Positions 2,006-10,485 of a stretch of 13,674 bases of DNA are shown piece after piece. Position 1 is the stretch's first letter. Each line of letters opens with the position of its first letter. The stretch is from Patescibacteria group bacterium (GTDB lineage Bacteria > Patescibacteriota > Patescibacteriia > Patescibacteriales > GWC2-42-12), in contig JAHITL010000085.1 in assembly GCA_018817545.1 (NCBI GenBank), positions 1 to 13,674 of the forward strand. The letters are read 5' to 3'. The notes under the pieces are model-generated. The model searched no databases, was not told where the DNA came from, and saw only the letters and a list, made by a program, of their open reading frames with translations. Position numbers and translations under genes: made by a program.

Positions 2006-3091
2006 ATGATAATTCTTGGCATAGAAACAAGCTGTGATGAAACTGCAGTAGCTGTTTTAGATTGTAAAAATAATAATATAAAAATATTATCAAATATTGT
2101 TTCATCGCAAATAGAAATTCATCAAAAATACGGAGGAGTTGTGCCAGAGGTTGCTGCGCGCGAACATATTTTGAATATTTTACCAGTAGTTAACGAGGCA
2201 CTAGAGAAAGCTGAAATTAGTCCAGCTAATCATTCTTTATTAAAAAAAAATAAAAAAAATAAAATAGACGCAATCGCTGTTACAGCTGGGCCTGGACTAA
2301 TTACTTCTTTAATAATTGGAGTTGAAACAGCTAAAACATTAGCTTATGCCTGGCAAATTCCTATCATTGGGATTAATCATATCGAAGGGCATATATGCGC
2401 TAATTTTATAAATCAAGAAATCAAGAAATCAAGAAATCAAGAAAAAATTGAATTTCCCGCTTTAATTTTAACTGTAAGTGGAGGACACACATTGTTAATT
2501 TTAATGAAAGAGCATGAAAATTATAAAATTATTGGAGAAACAAGAGATGATGCAGTAGGCGAAGCGTTTGATAAGGCTGCTAAGCTTTTAAATATTGGTT
2601 ATCCGGGTGGACCTGCGATCGCGGCTGAGGCCGCTCGAGTCAAAAGTCAAAAGTCAAAAGTTGAAAGTATTTGTTTGCCTCGTCCAATGTTGAATGATAA
2701 AAGTTTTGATTTTTCTTTTTCTGGATTAAAAACAGCATTACTTTATGCTATTCAAAAGGATAAAAATTGGAAAGAAAAAATTCCTGAATATTGTGAAGAA
2801 TTTCAGCAAGCAGTGATAGATGTTTTAATTACTAAAACAATAAAAGCTGCTCAAAAATTAAATTGCAAAACAATAATGCTTTCTGGTGGTGTGTCCGCAA
2901 ATAAAGAATTAAGAAGTCAGTTTGATGTTGCTATTAAAACAAAATTAATTAACACCAAATTAGTAGCCCCTGAATTTGAATATTGTACAGATAATGCTGC
3001 CATGATTGCAACGGCTGGATATTTTTATGCCAAAAGAAAAGATTTTACACCTTGGCAAAAAATTAAAGCTGATTGCAATAAAGAATTTTAA
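2006..3091 (+). CDS. tsaD: tRNA N6-adenosine threonylcarbamoyltransferase TsaD
   Basis: Family knowledge: TsaD (Kae1/YgjD) transfers the threonylcarbamoyl group from TC-AMP to A37 of ANN-decoding tRNAs, with TsaB and TsaE, in the cytoplasm. Family motifs run the full length: GIETSCDETAVAV (5-17), HQKYGGVVPEVAAREH (39-54), NHIEGH (124-129, with metal ligands H125 and H129), LTVSGGHT (155-162), GEAFDKAAKLL (185-195), YPGGP (199-203), FSFSGLKTAL (236-245), LSGGVSANKELR (292-303) and TDNAAMIA (328-335, metal ligand D329). At 361 aa it is somewhat longer than E. coli TsaD (about 337). Part of the excess maps to two low-complexity insertions made of DNA tandem repeats, at residues 136-147 and 212-221. 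The ATG at 2006 places MIILGIETSCDET at the expected N-terminus. No Shine-Dalgarno motif. A terminator follows the gene, and the upstream neighbour is tRNA-Glu. Confidence 0.97.
   Translation: MIILGIETSCDETAVAVLDCKNNNIKILSNIVSSQIEIHQKYGGVVPEVAAREHILNILPVVNEALEKAEISPANHSLLKKNKKNKIDAIAVTAGPGLITSLIIGVETAKTLAYAWQIPIIGINHIEGHICANFINQEIKKSRNQEKIEFPALILTVSGGHTLLILMKEHENYKIIGETRDDAVGEAFDKAAKLLNIGYPGGPAIAAEAARVKSQKSKVESICLPRPMLNDKSFDFSFSGLKTALLYAIQKDKNWKEKIPEYCEEFQQAVIDVLITKTIKAAQKLNCKTIMLSGGVSANKELRSQFDVAIKTKLINTKLVAPEFEYCTDNAAMIATAGYFYAKRKDFTPWQKIKADCNKEF
2412..2443. repeat. Tandem octamer ATCAAGAA x4 inside tsaD
   Basis: Four perfect copies of the 8-bp unit lie within the coding sequence and encode NQEIKKSRNQEK (residues 136-147), between the metal-binding NHIEGH motif and SGGHT, where E. 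coli TsaD has a shorter loop. The unit is not a multiple of 3: adding or losing one copy would shift the frame, and three copies equal 8 codons. Confidence 0.9.
2639..2666. repeat. Heptamer array GTCAAAA x3 plus a degenerate copy inside tsaD
   Basis: Three perfect GTCAAAA units (2639-2659) and a fourth variant GTTGAAA (2660-2666) encode VKSQKSKVES (residues 212-221), in the loop between YPGGP and the PRP motif. The E. coli protein has a shorter stretch there. The array belongs to the same heptamer family as those in femAB (4051) and murE (5725), and is read in the same phase. Confidence 0.85.
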
Positions 3092-3126
3092 GTATTTGAT
3101 GATAAATACTAGATGGAAAATTTTAT

Positions 3127-3160
3127 AAAAAGAACATCTTAATTGAGGTTCTTTTTATTT
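3127..3160 (+). terminator. Intrinsic terminator after tsaD
   Basis: AAAAAGAAC (3127-3135) pairs with GTTCTTTTT (3148-3156), a 9-bp stem around a 12-base loop that can pair further internally (CTT/GAG). It ends in a T-run and is followed by ATTTGCTTTTTT. The A-run on the left makes it potentially bidirectional, but no minus-strand gene faces it. Confidence 0.75.
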
Positions 3161-3199
3161 GCTTTTTTGTATTAAAAATAGTAAATTTAAAGATGTATT

Positions 3200-3778
3200 A
3201 TGATAGCTTTTTTAAGTGGAAAAATAAAAAATAAGAGCAATGGCTATATTATTTTGGAAGTTAATAATATTGGCTATAAGGTTTTTATTAGTCAAATTTT
3301 TTTTGCTGATTTAGATATTAATCAGGCTGTTGATTTATATACGCATCAATATATTCGCGAAGATGCTTTGGATTTGTATGGACTTAGATCGTTGGATGAA
3401 TTGGAATTTTTTGAATTATTGATTTCTATTTCAGGAATTGGACCTAAATCTGCTTTAGGAGTCTTATCTATTGCTGGAATTAATGATATTAAAGAATCAA
3501 TTGTTGCTGGTGATCCAACTTTATTAACAAAAGTATCTGGCATTGGTAGAAAAATTGCTGAACGAGTTGTATTGGAATTAAGAGAAAAAATAAGAAAAAC
3601 AAATTTTGTTGAAGAAAAAACAGGAAGTATTTCTAGCTCAAGTGGTGATGAGATTGATGCTTTATTAGCGTTAGGATATTCTATTATTCAAGCAAGACAA
3701 GCGTTGCAAGCCATTGATCCAAAAATTAAAGAAAGTGGAGAGCGAATTAGACAGGCGTTAAGGAATTTAGGAAGATAA
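3200..3778 (+). CDS. ruvA: Holliday junction branch migration protein RuvA
   Basis: Family knowledge: RuvA tetramers bind four-way junctions and load the RuvB hexamer motor; RuvC then cuts. Three domains are visible in 192 aa. The N-terminal OB fold (about 1-62) starts MIAFLSGKI and ends with IREDALDLYGL, including the acidic-pin residues E54-D55. The middle domain has two helix-hairpin-helix motifs, ISGIGPKSALGVLS (77-90) and VSGIGRKIAERVVLEL (112-127). After a flexible Ser-rich linker (about 132-150) comes the C-terminal RuvB-binding domain (DEIDALLALGYS...). Length is normal for the family (about 200). The ATG at 3200 gives the canonical N-terminus and has no Shine-Dalgarno motif. Neither ruvB nor ruvC is adjacent in this window. 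A 35-base spacer made of heptamer repeats separates it from the next gene. Confidence 0.97.
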   Translation: MIAFLSGKIKNKSNGYIILEVNNIGYKVFISQIFFADLDINQAVDLYTHQYIREDALDLYGLRSLDELEFFELLISISGIGPKSALGVLSIAGINDIKESIVAGDPTLLTKVSGIGRKIAERVVLELREKIRKTNFVEEKTGSISSSSGDEIDALLALGYSIIQARQALQAIDPKIKESGERIRQALRNLGR

Positions 3779-3780
3779 AT

Positions 3781-3815
3781 CAATTATCAATTATCAATTA
3801 CGAATTATAAATTAT
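3781..3815. repeat. Five-copy heptamer array filling the ruvA-femAB spacer
   Basis: CAATTAT, CAATTAT, CAATTAC, GAATTAT and AAATTAT occupy 3781-3815 consecutively. The array starts 3 bases after the ruvA stop, and its last two bases are the AT of the femAB start codon (3814-3816). It is therefore essentially the whole intergenic spacer and the translation-initiation region of femAB. Confidence 0.85.
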
Positions 3816-4788
3816 GCGTATTATTACTTTAATAAATAAACAACAGCTTAATAATTTTATTGACTCACAAGAAATGAGCCAGTTTTTGCTTTCTTGGGAG
3901 TGGGGAAAATTTCAAGAAAAAACAGGAAAAAAAATAATTAGATTAGGAGTTGAATCAGAAGTAGGAGAACTTTTTGCTATGGCGACTTTGATAAAAAAAA
4001 CATTGGTAATGGGGAAAAATTATTTTTTTTGTCCGCGAGGCCCGGCGATAGTTAAAAGTGAAAAGTTAGAAGTTAAAAGTGTTATGGAATTTTTATTTAA
4101 TGAAATAAAAAAGATTGCCAAAGATGAGCGCGCTATTTTTTTGCGCTTTGAGCCACAATTTAAAATTCAAAATTTAAAATTTAAAATTCAAAAAACTATA
4201 GATATTGAACCTAGCAAAACTTTAGTTTTAAATTTAAAAAAAACAGAGGAAAATTTATTAAAAGAAATGCATCAAAAAACTAGATATAATATTAGGCTTG
4301 CCGAGAAAAAAGGAGTTGAATTTATTATTGCCGACATTAATCGTTTTGAAGATTTTTGGAGGCTTGCCAGCCAGACGAGTGAGAGAGATAATTTTTGTTT
4401 ACACGATAAAAATTATTATCGTCAAATGATTGAGACAGATGGTGTAAAATTATTTTTTATTAAATACAAAGAAAAATTTATTGCAACAGGAATTTTTTCT
4501 TTTTTTGGCGATACAGTAACTTATTTGCATGGAGCTTCAGCAAATTTTGATCGTAATGTTATGGCGCCATTTTTTTTGCATTGGCAATGTATTAAACTAG
4601 CTAAAAGACAAGGTTATAATTATTATGATTTTAATGGAATAGATGAAAAAAAATGGCCAGGAGTTACAAGATTTAAAAAAGGTTTTGGAGGCTTTGAATT
4701 AAATTTTTCAGGAACCTTTGATATGATTTTTAAAAATAATTGGTATAATGTTTACAGGATAGTTAGAAAAATTAGAAGAATGTTTTAG
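3814..4788 (+). CDS. FemAB-family peptidoglycan bridge aminoacyltransferase
   Basis: Family knowledge: FemA/FemB/FemX enzymes are GNAT-like proteins that add amino acids from aminoacyl-tRNA to the lipid II stem peptide, building peptidoglycan cross-bridges on the inner face of the membrane. Visible hallmarks in 324 aa are an N-terminal QFLLSWEWGKFQEKTGKK region, the positively charged helix MHQKTRYNIRLAEKKGV (152-168), the second GNAT half with SFFGDTVTYLHGAS, MAPFFLHWQCIKLAKRQGYNYYDFNG (from residue 250), and WPGVTRFKKGFGG. The helical coiled-coil arm of staphylococcal FemA is not evident. Which amino acid is added cannot be read from the sequence. Adjacency to a MurE-like ligase supports a cell-wall role. 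Two heptamer-repeat insertions lie at residues 80-89 and 115-126. The start at 3814 overlaps the upstream repeat array and has no Shine-Dalgarno motif. Confidence 0.9.
   Translation: MRIITLINKQQLNNFIDSQEMSQFLLSWEWGKFQEKTGKKIIRLGVESEVGELFAMATLIKKTLVMGKNYFFCPRGPAIVKSEKLEVKSVMEFLFNEIKKIAKDERAIFLRFEPQFKIQNLKFKIQKTIDIEPSKTLVLNLKKTEENLLKEMHQKTRYNIRLAEKKGVEFIIADINRFEDFWRLASQTSERDNFCLHDKNYYRQMIETDGVKLFFIKYKEKFIATGIFSFFGDTVTYLHGASANFDRNVMAPFFLHWQCIKLAKRQGYNYYDFNGIDEKKWPGVTRFKKGFGGFELNFSGTFDMIFKNNWYNVYRIVRKIRRMF
4051..4078. repeat. Heptamer array GTTAAAA-type x4 inside femAB
   Basis: The units GTTAAAA, GTGAAAA, GTTAGAA and GTTAAAA encode VKSEKLEVKS (residues 80-89). The second unit carries G where a T would give an in-frame TAA. 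Same family and reading phase as the arrays in tsaD (2639) and murE (5725). Confidence 0.85.
4157..4191. repeat. Heptamer array AATTYAA x5 inside femAB
   Basis: The units AATTTAA, AATTCAA, AATTTAA, AATTTAA and AATTCAA encode FKIQNLKFKIQ (within residues 115-126). The C bases at 4168 and 4189 are the only two positions of this array where T would make TAA stop codons. Confidence 0.88.
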
Positions 4789-4814
4789 AGAATTTTTAAT
4801 TTTATAATTTTTCA

Positions 4815-4826
4815 CCGCAAAAGCGG
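4815..4826. other. Short GC hairpin CCGC-AAAA-GCGG
   Basis: A 4-bp stem lies in otherwise AT-only sequence after femAB. No T-run follows directly (ACAGGTAA comes first), so it is a poor intrinsic terminator. It resembles the TCCCGC/GCGGGA hairpin at 10575-10591. Its role is unknown. Confidence 0.4.
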
Positions 4827-4832
4827 GACAGG

Positions 4833-5040
4833 TAATTTTTAAATAATACTTTAAAATAATTTTTAATTTTATAATTTTTAATTTTTAAATAATAATTTAA
4901 TATCTAATTTTTAATATAAATTTCAAGAAATAATTAAGACATACATACATACATACAAATAAATATTTATATATTAAAAAATTAGAGTATTATTTAAAAA
5001 TTAAAAAGTATAAAATTAAAAATTAAAAAGTATAAAATTA
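4833..5040. repeat. AT-rich repeat region between femAB and murE
   Basis: This non-coding stretch holds three clear elements. A perfect 18-nt inverted repeat has arms at 4833-4850 and 4986-5003. A tetranucleotide microsatellite, (ACAT)4 plus AC, lies at 4939-4956 between the arms. A perfect 22-bp tandem duplication (4997-5018 and 5019-5040) ends three bases before the murE ATG. Sequence at about 4791-4811 and 4856-4895 is the reverse complement of the AAAATTA-type repeats found at 6532 and 10592. I see no convincing promoter or ORF here. Confidence 0.8.
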
Positions 5041-5043
5041 ATT

Positions 5044-6456
5044 ATGGAAATATTATTACATAAAATAAAAAAATATATTCCTAAAAAGATATTTAAATTT
5101 TTGCAGCCTGCTTACCATTTTTTATTAAGCGCGATAGCGGCTTTTTGGTATCATTTTCCTTCTGATAAGTTGATTGTTATTGGAATCACAGGTACTACAG
5201 GAAAAACAACTAGTCTTTTTTTAATGGCGAAAACATTGGTTAATGCTGGTTATAAAGTTGGATATATTTCTACGGCAATGTTTAGTGATGGTCAGACAGA
5301 ATGGTTGAATGATAAAAAAATGACTATGCCTGGTCGTTTTTTTTCACAGAAAATATTAGCGCAAATGGTAAAAAATAAATGTCATTATGTAATTATTGAA
5401 ACAACATCAGAGGGTATTGAGCAATTTCGTCATCGTTTTATTAATTATGATATTTTAATTTTCACGTGCCTTTATCCAGAACATATAGAATCTCACGGTA
5501 GTTTTGAAAATTATAAACAAGCAAAAGGAAAATTATTTGCTCATCTTAAAAAGTGTCATACAAAATATGTTGATGAACAAAAAATAATAAAACAACCAGA
5601 TAGTGGTATAAAAAAAATTGGTTTAAATAGAATTAAAAAAACTATTATTGCTAATGCTGATGATAAGTATGCAAATTATTTTTTTGATTTTTGGGCTGAA
5701 GAAAAAATTGGTTATACCAATAAAGTTAAAAGTCAAAAGTTAAAAGTTAAAAGCAATCTAAATGTTATAATTGAGTATGGAAATATTAATGTAAGCGAAG
5801 TGGCTATTAATTTTTTTGTTGAAGAGACTAATATTGTATTAAAGTTATTGGGTGAATTTAATGTTGTTAATGCTATGAATGCTGTTTGTTTGGGCGTATC
5901 TCAAGGAATTAGTCTAGCTAAAGTTGCAAATGGATTGAGTAAAGTTGGGCAAATGCCTGGGCGATTAGAAATAATTAAAGAAAAACAACCCTTTACTGTT
6001 ATAGTTGATTATGCTTTTGAACCAGTAGCCATAACTAAACTTTATGAAGCAGTTAAAGTTTTGCCATATCATAAAATTATTCATCTTTTGGGTTCTTGCG
6101 GTGGTGGGAGAGATAAGTCGCGCAGGAGTGAGTTGGGTAAAATTGCTGGGGTTAAAGCTGATATAGTAATTGTTACCAATGAAGATCCTTATGACGAAGA
6201 TCCACAAATTATTATTGAACAAGTAGCCGCTAGTGTTAAAAACGTTGGTAAAATTATAGATAAAAATTTGTTTAAAATTTTAGATAGAAGAGAGGCTATT
6301 AAAAAAGCATTGTCTTTAGCAAAAGATGGTGATTTAGTTTTAATTACAGGTAAGGGTTGTGAGCAAAAAATGTGTGTTGCCGATGGAGTTAAAATTCCGT
6401 GGGATGATAGAAAGGTGGTGAGAGAGGAATTATTAGGCATCGGAATTTTATATTGA
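5044..6456 (+). CDS. murE: MurE-like UDP-MurNAc-tripeptide synthetase lacking the N-terminal domain
   Basis: Family knowledge: MurE adds the third amino acid (meso-DAP or Lys) to UDP-MurNAc-L-Ala-D-Glu using ATP in the cytoplasm. Seen here in 470 aa are the P-loop GITGTTGKTT (47-56), the ETTSEG segment, PEHIESHGSFENYKQAK with the likely carbamylated K161, the C-terminal-domain MPGRLE motif, LGSCGGGRDKSRR, NEDPYDEDP (379-387) and GKGCEQKM (436-443). E. coli MurE has its P-loop after about 110 residues; here it comes at 47, so the uridine-binding N-terminal domain is missing and is replaced by a short segment with a hydrophobic helix (about 19-38). The substrate-selecting DNPR motif of DAP-type enzymes reads EDPY, so the third residue added cannot be predicted. 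The usual GKGHE His is Cys439. A heptamer array encodes residues 228-237. Its position after femAB fits cell-wall synthesis. Confidence 0.88.
   Translation: MEILLHKIKKYIPKKIFKFLQPAYHFLLSAIAAFWYHFPSDKLIVIGITGTTGKTTSLFLMAKTLVNAGYKVGYISTAMFSDGQTEWLNDKKMTMPGRFFSQKILAQMVKNKCHYVIIETTSEGIEQFRHRFINYDILIFTCLYPEHIESHGSFENYKQAKGKLFAHLKKCHTKYVDEQKIIKQPDSGIKKIGLNRIKKTIIANADDKYANYFFDFWAEEKIGYTNKVKSQKLKVKSNLNVIIEYGNINVSEVAINFFVEETNIVLKLLGEFNVVNAMNAVCLGVSQGISLAKVANGLSKVGQMPGRLEIIKEKQPFTVIVDYAFEPVAITKLYEAVKVLPYHKIIHLLGSCGGGRDKSRRSELGKIAGVKADIVIVTNEDPYDEDPQIIIEQVAASVKNVGKIIDKNLFKILDRREAIKKALSLAKDGDLVLITGKGCEQKMCVADGVKIPWDDRKVVREELLGIGILY
5725..5752. repeat. Heptamer array GTYAAAA x4 inside murE
   Basis: The units GTTAAAA, GTCAAAA, GTTAAAA and GTTAAAA encode VKSQKLKVKS (residues 228-237) in a region between the ATP-binding core motifs. 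Only the second unit has C, exactly where T would create TAA. Same family and phase as the arrays at 2639 and 4051. Confidence 0.88.
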
Positions 6457-6531
6457 ATACGGTATTTGGCGACAGACCCATCAATTCAGAATTTAAAATT
6501 TTGTTTTAAAATTAAAAATTAGAATTTATTT

Positions 6532-6576
6532 AAAAATTATAAAATTATAAAATTAAAAATTAAAAATTAAAAATTA
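6532..6576. repeat. AT-rich tandem repeat (AAAATTAT / AAATTAA units) after murE
   Basis: Consecutive 7-8 bp units of the AAAATTAT and AAATTAA type. The first 31 bases (6532-6562) are identical to 10592-10622 in the rpoB-rpoC spacer, and inverted relatives lie in the femAB-murE spacer. Confidence 0.8.
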
Positions 6577-7104: not shown

Positions 7105-10100
7105 ATGCCTAATAAAATAAAAGCAGAGAAACGTATTAAATTCGCTAGTATTGAAAAGACTTTTCCTCTACCAGACCTAATTGAGATTCAGAAAGATTCT
7201 TATAATTGGTTTTTGAAAGAAGGTCTTACTGATTTATTTGAGGAAGTTTTTCCTATAACTGATTTTATTGGTCGTAATTTAGAACTTCATTTGGATAAAT
7301 ATTATCTTGATGAAGCTAAATTTGATGAAGTTGTTAGTCGCGCAAAAAATGTTACTTATGAAGCTTCTTTAAGAGCTCAAGTTAGATTAGTTAATAAAAA
7401 AACAGAGCACGTTGTTACTCAAGAAGTGTTTTTAGGAGATTTTCCTTTGATGACTAAAAACGGGACTTTTATTATTAATGGTATTGAACGTGTAGTTGTT
7501 TCTCAGCTGATTAGAAGCGCTGGCGTGATTTTTTCTTCAGAATTTATTAAGGGTAAAAAATATTATGGAGCTAAAGTTATTCCTAATCGTGGTGCTTGGT
7601 TGGAAATTGAAACTGATGCTAATAATGTAATTTGGGTAAGAATTGATCGCAAACGTAAAGTAGCTATCACTTCTTTGTTGCGCGCTTTTGGCTATTCTAG
7701 CGATGAAGAAATAAAAAGTCTATTTAATAACAGTAAAGGAATAGGAACTGAATCTATTGGTGATTATATTGATGCTACAATAGCTAAGGATACTGCAAAA
7801 GATGAAGCAGGAGGATTAAAAGAGGTTTACAAAAGAATTAGACCAGGAGATTTAGCCACGACAGAGAATGCTCGTCAATTTATTCACTCAATGTTTTTTA
7901 GATTTGATCGTTATGATTTTGATCGAGTTGGTCGTTATAAAATAAATAAACGATTTGGTTTTACTGTACCTAATAATAAGGAAAATAGAATTTTACGACG
8001 TGAAGATCTGATTGCTATTATTACTGAAGTAATAAGATTAAATATTACGCAAGAACAGGAAGATGATATTGACCATTTGGGTAATCGTCGTATTAGGGCA
8101 ATTGGTGAGTTAATTCAAAATAAATTTAGAGTTGGCTTATCTCGTATGGAGAGAATTGTTAGAGATAGAATGAGTATTATGGATATAGATAGTTTAACAC
8201 CGAATAAGTTAATTAATGCTCGTCCAGTTATTAGTGTTGTAAAAGAATTTTTTATGTCTTCTCAGCTATCGCAGTTTATGGATCAAACCAACCCTTTAGC
8301 AGAATTAGAGCATAAAAGAAGATTGTCTGCCATGGGTCCAGGTGGATTAACTAGAGAACGAGCTGGTTTTGAAGTTCGTGATGTGCACCCTACTCATTAT
8401 GGGCGTATTTGTCCGATTGCGACTCCTGAAGGTCCGAATATTGGTTTAGTCGGTCATTTAACTAGTTACGCTAGACTAAATAAATATGGATTTATTGAAT
8501 CTCCTTATCGAAGAGTTTTACATGATATTGAAAATAAAGCAGAAATAACTGAAAATAAAATTGTTAGACAGGATATTTATGAAATGAAAGGTGATAAGCA
8601 GGGAGTTTTGATTATTAAAGAAGGAAAAATTATTGATAAGAAAACAGCGCAAATATTAGAAGAAAAATTAGGACCTGTTACTATAGCAATCAAGCCAATG
8701 GTTACTGATGAGATAATTTATTTAGACGCTTTTACTGAAGAAAAATATATTACTACTGTAGCTACTACGCCAATTGATAGCAAAGGATATTTTTTGGTTG
8801 AAAAGACAGAAGCTAGAAAGTATAATAGGCCAACAATTGAAGCTGTAGAAAATATTGATTTTATGGCTTTAGCTGCTAATCAGATTATTTCTGTGGCAAC
8901 TTCTTTAATTCCTTTTTTAGAACATGATGATGGTATTAGAGCATTAATGGGCACTAATATGCAACGTCAGGCAGTTCCTTTGATTAGTGCTGAAGCTCCA
9001 ATAGTTGGTACTGGAATTGAAGTTGAAGCTGCCAGAGATTCTGGTTATGTAATTATTGCTGAAACAGATGGAGAAATTTCTAAAGTTGATGGCACTGCTA
9101 TTGATGTAAAAGACAATGAAGGTAAAACGAGAAATTATAAATTAAATAAATTTTCACGTTCTAATGCGTCTACTTGTGTTAATCAGCGCCCAATAGTTAG
9201 TAAAGGAGATAAAATTAAAAAAGGACAGGTGTTAACTGATAGCTCAGCAGTTGATAATGGAGAATTGGCATTAGGTAGAAATATTTTAGTTGCTTTTATG
9301 ACTTGGCGCGGATTTAATTATGAAGACGCGATTATTATTTCAGAAGATTTGCTTAGAAAAGATGTTTTTTCATCTATTCATATTGAAAATTATACTATTA
9401 GTGTTCGTGATACTAAATTAGGTCCAGAATTAATGACTAATGATATCCCAAATATTAGTGAAGAAAAATTAAAAGATTTGGACGAATATGGCGTAGTAAG
9501 AATTGGCGCAGAAGTTTCTAGCGGTGATATTTTGGTTGGTAAAATTACACCAAAGGGAGAAACAGAATTATCAGCTGAAGAAAAATTATTAAGAGCGATT
9601 TTTGGTGAGAAAGCTAAAGATGTTAGAGATTCGTCGCTTTATTTGGAACACGGGGAGCATGGCAAAGTTGTTGATATTAAAATCTTTTCTAGAGAGAAAG
9701 GTGATAAACTTTCAGCTGGCGTTATCCAATCAGTTCAAGTAACAGTAGCTAATTTGAGAAAAATTCAAATTGGCGACAAAATGGCTGGCAGACATGGAAA
9801 TAAAGGTGTTATTTCTAAAATTGTCCCTGCTGAAGATATGCCATATTTGGCAGATGGAACTCGGGTTGAGATTATTTTGTCTCCTTTGGGTGTTGTTTCT
9901 AGAATGAATTTGGGTCAACTTTTGGAAACTCATTTAGGTATGGCTGCTAAGCGATTGGGTTATCGAGTAGACGTTCCTGTTTTAGAGGGTATTTCTAAAG
10001 ATAAAATTCAGGAAGAATTGGTTAAATCAGGTATGCCTGCTGATGGTAAATTAGTTTTGCACGATGGCCGCACAGGAGAACCTTTTGATAATAAAATAGT

Positions 10101-10485
10101 AGTTGGTTATAAATATATTTTAAAACTCAATCATATGGTTGAGGATAAAATTCACCAAAGATCAATCGGTCCATATTCATTAATTACACAACAGCCTTTA
10201 GGAGGTAAAGCTCAATATGGTGGTCAACGTTTTGGTGAAATGGAAGTGTGGGCGTTAGAAGCGTATGGAGCTGCTCATACTTTGCAGGAAATATTAACTA
10301 TTAAATCAGACGATGTTCCAGGACGAAGTAAGGCTTATGAGGCAATTATTAAAGGAGAAACTATTAAAAAGCTTAATATTCCAGAGTCTTTTAATGTTTT
10401 AATTAGAGAGCTTAAAGGATTATGTCTTGACGTAGAGTTGTTAAAAGATAATCAAGTTATTAAATTAGAACGACAAGGAGAGTAG
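7105..10485 (+). CDS. rpoB: DNA-directed RNA polymerase subunit beta
   Basis: RpoB forms one half of the RNA polymerase active-site cleft with RpoC. At 1126 aa it is shorter than the E. coli subunit (1342) and lacks its large lineage-specific insertions. Conserved blocks include MTKNGTFIINGIERVVVSQL near the N-terminus, the rifampicin region SQLSQFMDQTNPL...HKRRLSAMGPGGLTRERAG (from residue 386), VRDVHPTHYGRICPIATPEGPN, LMGTNMQRQAVPL, GDKMAGRHGNKG (890-901), NLGQLLETHLG and the C-terminal GGKAQYGGQRFGEMEVWALEAYGA. Residues equivalent to E. coli D516, H526 and S531 are conserved (D393, H403, S408); L533 is replaced by M410. The ATG at 7105 gives the usual short N-terminal extension, with no Shine-Dalgarno motif. 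rplJ/rplL do not precede it directly. rpoC follows after 152 bases. Confidence 0.99.
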   Translation: MPNKIKAEKRIKFASIEKTFPLPDLIEIQKDSYNWFLKEGLTDLFEEVFPITDFIGRNLELHLDKYYLDEAKFDEVVSRAKNVTYEASLRAQVRLVNKKTEHVVTQEVFLGDFPLMTKNGTFIINGIERVVVSQLIRSAGVIFSSEFIKGKKYYGAKVIPNRGAWLEIETDANNVIWVRIDRKRKVAITSLLRAFGYSSDEEIKSLFNNSKGIGTESIGDYIDATIAKDTAKDEAGGLKEVYKRIRPGDLATTENARQFIHSMFFRFDRYDFDRVGRYKINKRFGFTVPNNKENRILRREDLIAIITEVIRLNITQEQEDDIDHLGNRRIRAIGELIQNKFRVGLSRMERIVRDRMSIMDIDSLTPNKLINARPVISVVKEFFMSSQLSQFMDQTNPLAELEHKRRLSAMGPGGLTRERAGFEVRDVHPTHYGRICPIATPEGPNIGLVGHLTSYARLNKYGFIESPYRRVLHDIENKAEITENKIVRQDIYEMKGDKQGVLIIKEGKIIDKKTAQILEEKLGPVTIAIKPMVTDEIIYLDAFTEEKYITTVATTPIDSKGYFLVEKTEARKYNRPTIEAVENIDFMALAANQIISVATSLIPFLEHDDGIRALMGTNMQRQAVPLISAEAPIVGTGIEVEAARDSGYVIIAETDGEISKVDGTAIDVKDNEGKTRNYKLNKFSRSNASTCVNQRPIVSKGDKIKKGQVLTDSSAVDNGELALGRNILVAFMTWRGFNYEDAIIISEDLLRKDVFSSIHIENYTISVRDTKLGPELMTNDIPNISEEKLKDLDEYGVVRIGAEVSSGDILVGKITPKGETELSAEEKLLRAIFGEKAKDVRDSSLYLEHGEHGKVVDIKIFSREKGDKLSAGVIQSVQVTVANLRKIQIGDKMAGRHGNKGVISKIVPAEDMPYLADGTRVEIILSPLGVVSRMNLGQLLETHLGMAAKRLGYRVDVPVLEGISKDKIQEELVKSGMPADGKLVLHDGRTGEPFDNKIVVGYKYILKLNHMVEDKIHQRSIGPYSLITQQPLGGKAQYGGQRFGEMEVWALEAYGAAHTLQEILTIKSDDVPGRSKAYEAIIKGETIKKLNIPESFNVLIRELKGLCLDVELLKDNQVIKLERQGE

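Follow-up and report, generated by a model that had tools for sequence, protein, structure and literature searches.

Heptanucleotide repeat arrays recur in protein loops of conserved genes of Patescibacteria

Repeat arrays at the locus

The DNA analysed here (the window) is a stretch of 13,674 nt, read on the forward strand of contig JAHITL010000085.1 (assembly GCA_018817545.1), from a Patescibacteria group bacterium whose genome (663,343 b in 131 contigs, 89% complete) is labelled G000; other G numbers denote genomes and L numbers denote loci. The G+C content is 29% in the window and 24% in a larger sample of the same genome. Three conserved genes of the window, namely tsaD, femAB and a gene for a MurE-like Mur ligase, carry in-frame tandem arrays of 7-nt units (heptamers), and further arrays lie next to them:

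2006..3091, + strand: tsaD (PF00814, E 2.2e-86)
2410..2444, + strand: in-frame octamer array in tsaD, AAATCAAG x4.4, residues 135-147, in the second hot-spot loop of TsaD
2639..2666, + strand: heptamer array in tsaD, GTCAAAA x3 + GTTGAAA, residues 212-221, peptide VKSQKSKVES
3779..3815, + strand: heptamer array ATCAATT directly 5' of the femAB start, mainly intergenic
3814..4788, + strand: femAB (PF02388, E 3e-44)
4051..4078, + strand: degenerate heptamer array in femAB, GTTAAAA GTGAAAA GTTAGAA GTTAAAA, residues 80-89, peptide VKSEKLEVKS
4157..4193, + strand: second in-frame heptamer array in femAB, unit AATTTAA, residues 115-127, found by Tandem Repeats Finder (TRF) and by the 18/21 test (below)
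4857..4915, + strand: intergenic heptamer array TAATTTT, 5' of the MurE-like gene, 74% matches
4994..5041, + strand: intergenic array TTAAAAA (period 22 too), directly 5' of the MurE-like start
5044..6456, + strand: MurE-like Mur ligase gene (PF08245, E 3.2e-28; PF02875, E 2.3e-25)
5725..5752, + strand: heptamer array in the MurE-like gene, GTTAAAA GTCAAAA GTTAAAA GTTAAAA, residues 228-237, peptide VKSQKLKVKS
6508..6576, + strand: intergenic heptamer array AAAATTA, 3' of the MurE-like gene

The initial annotation had described arrays of four GTYAAAA-type units (Y, C or T) in the three genes, and all three are present, every one of them beginning with the first base of a codon in an intact open reading frame (ORF). 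The tsaD and MurE-like arrays are clean, whereas the femAB array at 4051-4078 is degenerate (83% matches in TRF); for this reason it is missed by a stricter period-7 test, in which 18/21 positions must match, and is left out of the ortholog array count given below. Two coding arrays had been overlooked: (i) the femAB array at 4157-4193, which is stronger than that at 4051-4078; and (ii) the tsaD octamer array. Judged from the sequence, the window's coding arrays repeat in tandem and in direct orientation, and their sense strand is rich in A. The pattern GTYAAAAx2, with at most two mismatches, has 19 matches in the window versus a mean of 3.4 in shuffled sequence, and 0/200 shuffles reach 19; seven of these matches are other A/T-rich runs between genes (+ or - strand) and four belong to the second femAB array. 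By eye, the intergenic arrays at 4994-5041 and 4857-4915 are roughly complementary.

Coding phase and encoded peptide

The arrays of the three genes do share one coding phase, which had been regarded as unexpected. Three arrays share a phase with a chance of 1/9, and in the 35 internal arrays of Patescibacteria (runs of three or more exact GTYAAAA units that lie 20 or more residues within an ORF) phases 0, 1 and 2 are found 15, 9 and 11 times, so that a fixed coding phase is rejected as a signal. Because 7 and 3 are coprime, three or more units cross all frames and the same circular 7-residue peptide results in any phase; for a GTCAAAA array this peptide is VKSQKSK. That the repeat family generates a recurrent Lys/Ser/Val peptide is supported, and the unit recurs genome-wide. 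In phase 0, a second unit GTTAAAA would read TAA; the window arrays carry GTC or GTG at that place. As read from the sequence, avoidance of a stop accounts for this C or G, which is no evidence of function.

Loops of TsaD, FemAB and MurE-like orthologs

A search of the genome of the window and 40 relatives matched TsaD in 38/41, the MurE-like protein in 39/41 and FemAB in 38/41 genomes, some of them weakly. Arrays were counted in 30 loci per protein (90 in total) and mapped on alignments. Period 7 accounts for 35 arrays, while periods 8 and 12 have two each and periods 4, 5, 6, 9, 10, 11 and 13 have none in these 90 loci. The period-7 arrays are distributed as follows: (i) in TsaD, 20/20 lie in two loops, at residues 137-148 (11 arrays, 10 distinct units) or 210-222 (nine arrays, eight distinct units), in 13/30 orthologs; (ii) in FemAB, 13/13 lie in two loops, at residues 79-93 (six) or 115-127 (seven), in 11/30 orthologs, the rows L099 and L119 being partial and one of the 13 arrays belonging to L099, a gene with stops; and (iii) in the MurE-like protein, 2/2 lie at residues 225-240, in 2/30 orthologs. 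L099 (femAB of G001, a genome of the same genus) has six stops, with an AAAATAC heptamer array in the part that is still open; this copy looks broken or misassembled.

At the sites of the window arrays, orthologs with intact frames have other heptamer arrays, have palindromic elements, or have a loop that is short and plain. The palindromic repeat elements (e.g., CCCCCTTTATCAAGGGGG, CCCGGCGTATGCCGGG) are in frame and occupy the same loops as heptamer arrays: in TsaD at L034, L039, L045 and L059, in FemAB at L108, in the MurE-like protein at L070 and in an AHCY-like protein at L385. The description of one repeat family in three genes was too narrow, as many 7-nt units and palindromic elements fill the same loops in relatives. 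One and the same TsaD loop is filled with GTCAAAA in both G036 and G333, the latter from the same phylum but outside the class.

That the repeat family is tolerated in loops, as had been proposed, is supported: structural models have low confidence where the TsaD array and the MurE-like array lie. The TsaD model has a mean predicted local distance difference test score (pLDDT) of 91.4 and is weak at residues 71-90 (66, 77), 139-145 (<50) and 211-220 (69); the MurE-like model has a mean of 84.1, with 63 at residues 231-240. Aligned with the solved TsaD chain 6nak_B, the TsaD of the window is longer in the two array regions, by 8 and 5 residues.

The arrays differ in age, since the FemAB loop of G002 encodes a similar peptide with a decayed array and the MurE-like L062 (same genus) has a different, non-heptamer loop. 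Comparison with orthologs had been suggested as a way of finding lineage-specific insertions: it does reveal different fillings among relatives, but G002 has the FemAB loop peptide too, in a decayed form, and recent lineage-specific insertion is rejected as a general rule. The TsaD of the same-genus G001 (75% complete) was not found beyond a weak partial match.

One explanation of these data is that selection acts on a functional peptide, such as a charged VKSQKSK loop, and that the repeat in the DNA is a by-product. The FemAB loop of G002, whose peptide remains similar despite the decay of its array, speaks for it. Nevertheless, the same loops hold chemically different peptides (NYELRIT-like, FSIFNFQ-like, palindrome-encoded) or are short and plain, which makes this explanation very improbable.

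Period 7 across the genome and its relatives

A genome-wide search for GTYAAAA arrays, which the initial annotation had recommended, gave 74 matches of the three-unit pattern with at most two mismatches (663,343 b, overlaps included) versus 26 for the reversed pattern, a control which is not clean because other heptamer families match it too. In 115 kb of sequence of this genome, 21 period-7 arrays were observed versus ~0 in third-order Markov simulations (3 rounds); simulation of the relatives' stretches also gave ~0. In contigs C1-C20 of the genome (101 kb) there are 16 arrays of period 7, seven of period 14 and four of period 8, and 15/16 of the period-7 arrays are intergenic. Arrays of periods 9, 18 and 27 (eight, eight and five) are likewise above chance in these contigs, with three, four and one of them in ORFs; the remaining periods are rarer. 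In contig C2 of 20 relatives (271.5 kb), period 7 accounts for 19 arrays and its harmonic 14 for nine, any other period having 0-2; counting all units, 16/19 period-7 arrays are intergenic and 3/19 coding. Patescibacteria carry heptamer arrays in many unit sequences, mostly between genes in the sampled contigs.

Chance, a composition effect or an assembly artefact might be invoked, given an A/T-rich genome and a fragmented assembly of 131 contigs. Against this stand a Markov expectation of ~0, the near absence of other periods in the same genes and the in-frame arrays of many genomes. An origin by base composition, named at the outset as one of the outcomes that would overturn the claim, is disfavoured by these counts, and this whole class of explanations is extremely improbable.

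Some intergenic heptamer arrays form inverted pairs by eye, i.e., an array and its reverse complement at most some tens of bases apart (L160 2715-2797, L210 756-845, L220 1992-2100 and L207 15360-15454). From their sequence, such pairs would be able to form hairpins in transcripts.

Distribution across phyla and between coding and intergenic DNA

The exact four-unit GTYAAAA array occurs in at least 113 stretches across phyla. Among the matches listed (80 of at least 113), 38 are from cyanobacteria (Nostoc, Okeania, Scytonema and others), 26 from Bacteroidota and eight from Patescibacteria, as assigned by record title; the remaining eight, from other groups, were left out of the analysis. Within the phylum, exact three-unit arrays occur in 28/286 genomes, the genome of the window included. 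Some 7-mers seem to be favoured across phyla, GTYAAAA arrays being found in cyanobacteria and Bacteroidota as well.

The Patescibacteria loci comprise 29 phylum loci (one or two per matching genome rather than every match), the eight Patescibacteria records, order relatives and the genome's own contigs. Two of the records, one from Uhrbacteria (same class) and one from Chisholmbacteria (same phylum), have arrays and flanks equal to those of G269 and G245; these duplicates were removed by context, and 8 of 10 arrays were kept. Five arrays less than 90 bases from a locus end were dropped (one from the order, one from the phylum, one from cyanobacteria and two from Bacteroidota). On this basis, GTYAAAA arrays lie inside ORFs in 35/67 cases in Patescibacteria versus 1/47 in cyanobacteria (Fisher 1.5e-9) and 1/25 in Bacteroidota (8.8e-6). 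Since the unit itself served to fetch the loci, what is compared is how one and the same DNA fares in each phylum. The pattern had four units for cyanobacteria and Bacteroidota and three for most of the Patescibacteria loci, and among the order relatives some loci had been chosen because they lie near matches. No antisense GTYAAAA array was found in ORFs among the Patescibacteria, cyanobacteria and Bacteroidota loci counted. The arrays, then, have period 7, are sense-only, are bound to loops in the families examined and recur with different units.

For units other than GTY, 4/29 are coding in random Patescibacteria contigs, 1/70 in the cyanobacterial loci and 2/10 in the Bacteroidota loci; the Patescibacteria differ from cyanobacteria (p 0.025), while for these units Bacteroidota are no different from Patescibacteria in a small sample. 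The Pfam scan of 19 of the 43 coding-array ORFs assigned a family to 18/19, including class I aminoacyl-tRNA synthetases, PheS-like, MnmA-like, Obg, LepA, TsaD, DNA ligase, Mur ligase, glycosyltransferase, transglycosylase and others. Phase-variation switching of a surface gene by change of unit copy number would seem implausible, because many of these genes are housekeeping genes (TsaD, aminoacyl-tRNA synthetases, Obg, LepA) in which +7 would cause a frameshift.

Coding arrays are longer than intergenic arrays. Array lengths k=2/3/4/5 are found in 10/25/22/2 coding arrays, plus one of k=14 (n=60), and in 30/12/2/0 intergenic arrays, plus one of k=6 (n=45), so that k=2 accounts for 10/60 versus 30/45 (Fisher 2.1e-7). 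The coding set comes largely from families picked for the window arrays, some stretches were chosen near matches, and arrays shorter than 18 nt escape detection; in the random sample, the four coding arrays are two of k=2 and two of k=3. Exact GTYAAAA runs have at least four units in 17/30 internal versus 6/24 intergenic cases (p 0.027, records fetched with four units excluded). Longer coding arrays would be expected if genes exclude steps of +7 and +14 but admit +21.

Filled and empty sites in other proteins

In a protein which, from its sequence, we take to be AHCY-like, the corresponding loop was compared in seven loci: it holds GTCAAAA arrays in G007 and L147, a GGAATTA array in G009, a period-8 array (by eye) in G036 and a palindrome in G005, and it is empty in G004 and G018. 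Compared with the empty G018 site, the filled GTCAAAA sites (L384, L147) have +21 nt; the G018 site itself contains AAAAGGCAAAAGT, which nearly equals a single unit. Together with the TsaD loop filled with GTCAAAA in G036 and G333, this series speaks for independent filling of the loops.

In the presumed IleRS-like protein of G010 (L372), a 60-nt insert with a GTCAAAA array inside it separates a pair of cysteines; in the orthologs of G000, G003, G006, G008 and G012 this pair makes up a C-x2-C motif. From the sequence, this insert may alter a metal-binding knuckle. By eye, the protein also has several peptides resembling translations of palindromic elements.

Such an insert would suit a mobile or templated element by which ready-made heptamer cassettes, or palindromes, reach both genes and the DNA between them, as described for Rickettsia palindromic elements; palindromic elements in the same loops of other genomes, and the fact that genomes have favoured units, point the same way. 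On the other hand, many unrelated units share the period alone, and no conserved ends or target duplication were seen around the arrays, no systematic search having been made for these or for an enzyme. Such an element is unlikely.

Sharing of units

Units were taken as shared when they differ by at most one mismatch; of 24 genomes sampled, 13 contributed the 92 arrays compared. Pairs from one genome share units more often (115/453) than pairs from different genomes (588/3690), and the within-genome value of 0.254 exceeds the largest of 200 label shuffles (0.231). Loop arrays match other arrays of the same genome in 43/237 pairs and arrays of different genomes in 389/3590, with 13/1000 label shuffles as high. 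Between the three gene families, units match in 8/21 same-genome versus 60/494 different-genome pairs, the pairs within a genome not being independent. The spreading repeat seen by the initial annotation is in this way suggested but unproven, as is dispersal of units within genomes in general: a genome-specific slippage bias would give the same sharing, and the empty AHCY-like site has a seed.

These data bear directly on a purely local slippage, in which arrays grow in place from a chance seed of 4-11 nt with no movement between loci, and shared units reflect shared composition and codon use (e.g., Lys-Ser as AAAAGT). Two observations agree with it: (i) the near-unit AAAAGGCAAAAGT of the empty G018 site; and (ii) the likeness of units across genomes too (588/3690 pairs versus a letter-permuted mean of 0.08, largest 0.091). 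Two others oppose it: (i) the excess of sharing within over between genomes, also for loop arrays versus the rest; and (ii) the frameshift that each stepwise +7 would cause in essential genes, which demands larger or compensated steps. Slippage of this purely local kind is a real contender, although its chances fall somewhat short of even.

Explanation of the arrays

The reading that we consider probable is that the arrays are heptanucleotide repeats of the known type, i.e., short tandemly repeated repetitive (STRR) sequences or simple sequence repeats (SSRs), made by slippage, perhaps dispersed, and surviving in tolerant gene loops. Replication slippage or template switching, strongly biased towards 7 nt, would build the arrays from short seeds, and a genome's common units would also tend to appear at new places in it. 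Inside intact ORFs the arrays stand in sense orientation and, in the families examined, at the same few loops of variable length, with different units in different genomes. A single unit would shift the frame and three units (21 nt) would add one 7-residue peptide, so that the loops may be tolerated landing sites rather than a functional motif. According to PMC4679880, Mrazek and colleagues proposed that the polymerase may interact with a length of 7 nt.

A bolder reading is an active, genome-wide process with a seven-nt step that plants cassettes of the heptamers favoured by the respective genome, and palindromic elements, into the same housekeeping loops. The cassettes would ideally have three units, equal to 21 nt and seven codons; loop sequences would be continually rewritten across the phylum, and new peptide sequence would come from intergenic repeat DNA. 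We regard this process as rather unlikely.

Several points weigh against the tolerated-repeat reading, or against parts of it:

(i) Size of the step. The AHCY-like GTCAAAA sites have +18 nt with respect to the empty site of G004, which belongs to the same genus as the filled G007, and the TsaD, MurE-like and IleRS-like cases give still other net length differences. The 21-nt step thus rests on the comparison with G018, and an exact 21-nt step is rejected as a rule.

(ii) Coding location and frame. Units other than GTY are coding in 4/29 cases in random Patescibacteria contigs. Being in frame is partly built in, because a frame-shifting array breaks the ORF and then counts as intergenic, and the gene calls are simple ORF calls. 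Frame constraint is not the sole possible cause of longer coding arrays, since PMC4692102 reports that G-rich heptamers between genes of Nostoc and Xanthomonas prefer four units as well.

(iii) Specificity. The MurE-like model is about as weak at several other places (e.g., 61 at residues 351-360), and contigs C1-C20 of the genome also hold 8/8/5 arrays of periods 9/18/27 beside the 16 of period 7.

(iv) Cause. MutS (PF00488) is absent in 41/41 genomes (the genome of the window and 40 relatives) and present in 11/14 controls. Missing mismatch repair is rejected as the cause, given that genomes with and without GTYAAAA arrays all lack MutS; its absence may permit the arrays but does not determine them.

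Heptamer repeats are a little-studied oddity of bacteria, and one would expect essential genes hardly to admit a unit whose length is no multiple of three. The in-frame recurrence of arrays at the same loops in many lineages is a natural record of insertion-tolerant loops, and the question "why seven?" becomes testable through empty versus filled sites. It is also a warning that loop insertions of Patescibacteria proteins can be repeat DNA rather than functional domains.

Other features of the window

The long genes at 7105-10485 and from 10638 onward, which we take to be rpoB and rpoC, have no period-7 array at the 18/21 threshold. The adjacent ORFs at 202-1023 and 1066-1767 are related to each other (36% identity over 182 aa, E 5e-16); the Pfam scan gave no family for either, and the N-terminus of the latter is lipoprotein-like by eye. 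A tRNA-Glu (TTC) lies at 1829-1901.

Comparison with known systems

No description of heptamer arrays recurring in Patescibacteria protein loops was found in a literature search whose coverage excluded most subscription journals and preprints. Four systems invite comparison:

(i) STRR sequences and heptameric SSRs are known from Calothrix, Nostoc, Xanthomonas (GGGAATC) and Beggiatoaceae (TAACTGA). They are mostly intergenic, and they resemble the present arrays in their 7-nt unit, few copies, dispersal and large number per genome. As in these repeats, the 7-nt unit is over-represented with respect to other periods, and it is dispersed over many loci of the genome (74 matches; 16 arrays in 101 kb). 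The mainly intergenic trait applies to all units taken together (3/19 coding in relatives), and not to GTYAAAA (35/67 internal to ORFs in Patescibacteria). According to PMC4692102, heptamer SSRs are under-represented in coding regions. Here, in contrast, about half of the GTYAAAA arrays examined are inside ORFs (35/67 versus 1/47 in cyanobacteria), many of them housekeeping genes.

(ii) In the trnL(UAA) intron of Nostoc, the P6b loop is filled with different heptamer classes and non-heptamer indel elements depending on the strain (PMC3488679, PMC4476775). The likeness lies in one loop of a conserved gene being filled with alternative heptamer classes; the difference is that P6b is a hairpin loop of intron RNA with no reading frame, whereas here the loops are those of proteins, under a 3n constraint.

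(iii) Rickettsia palindromic elements are selfish mobile palindromes found in frame inside conserved genes. The arrays described here are likewise in-frame insertions into conserved genes at tolerated sites, but the Rickettsia elements are palindromes of a mobile family and the heptamer arrays are tandem; judged from the sequence, the coding arrays of the window have no palindromic hairpin body. Palindromes do use the heptamer-array loops in relatives here.

(iv) The amino-acid tandem repeats (aaTRs) of Borgs, which are archaeal extrachromosomal elements, are described in PMC9879509 as fast-evolving repeats in ORFs that make new disordered segments; at the amino-acid level these repeats are perfect, and many of the proteins concerned are extracellular or membrane-bound. 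The present arrays differ in that their unit of 7 nt is no multiple of three, that they typically have 3-5 copies and that they lie in housekeeping enzymes; those of the window are shorter than two 21-nt peptide periods, so that they do not encode perfect amino-acid tandem repeats.

Heptamer SSRs, a heptamer-filled intron loop and the in-frame repeats of Borgs were thus already known; the recurrence of heptamer arrays in the protein loops of Patescibacteria is the part for which the literature searched gave no earlier description.

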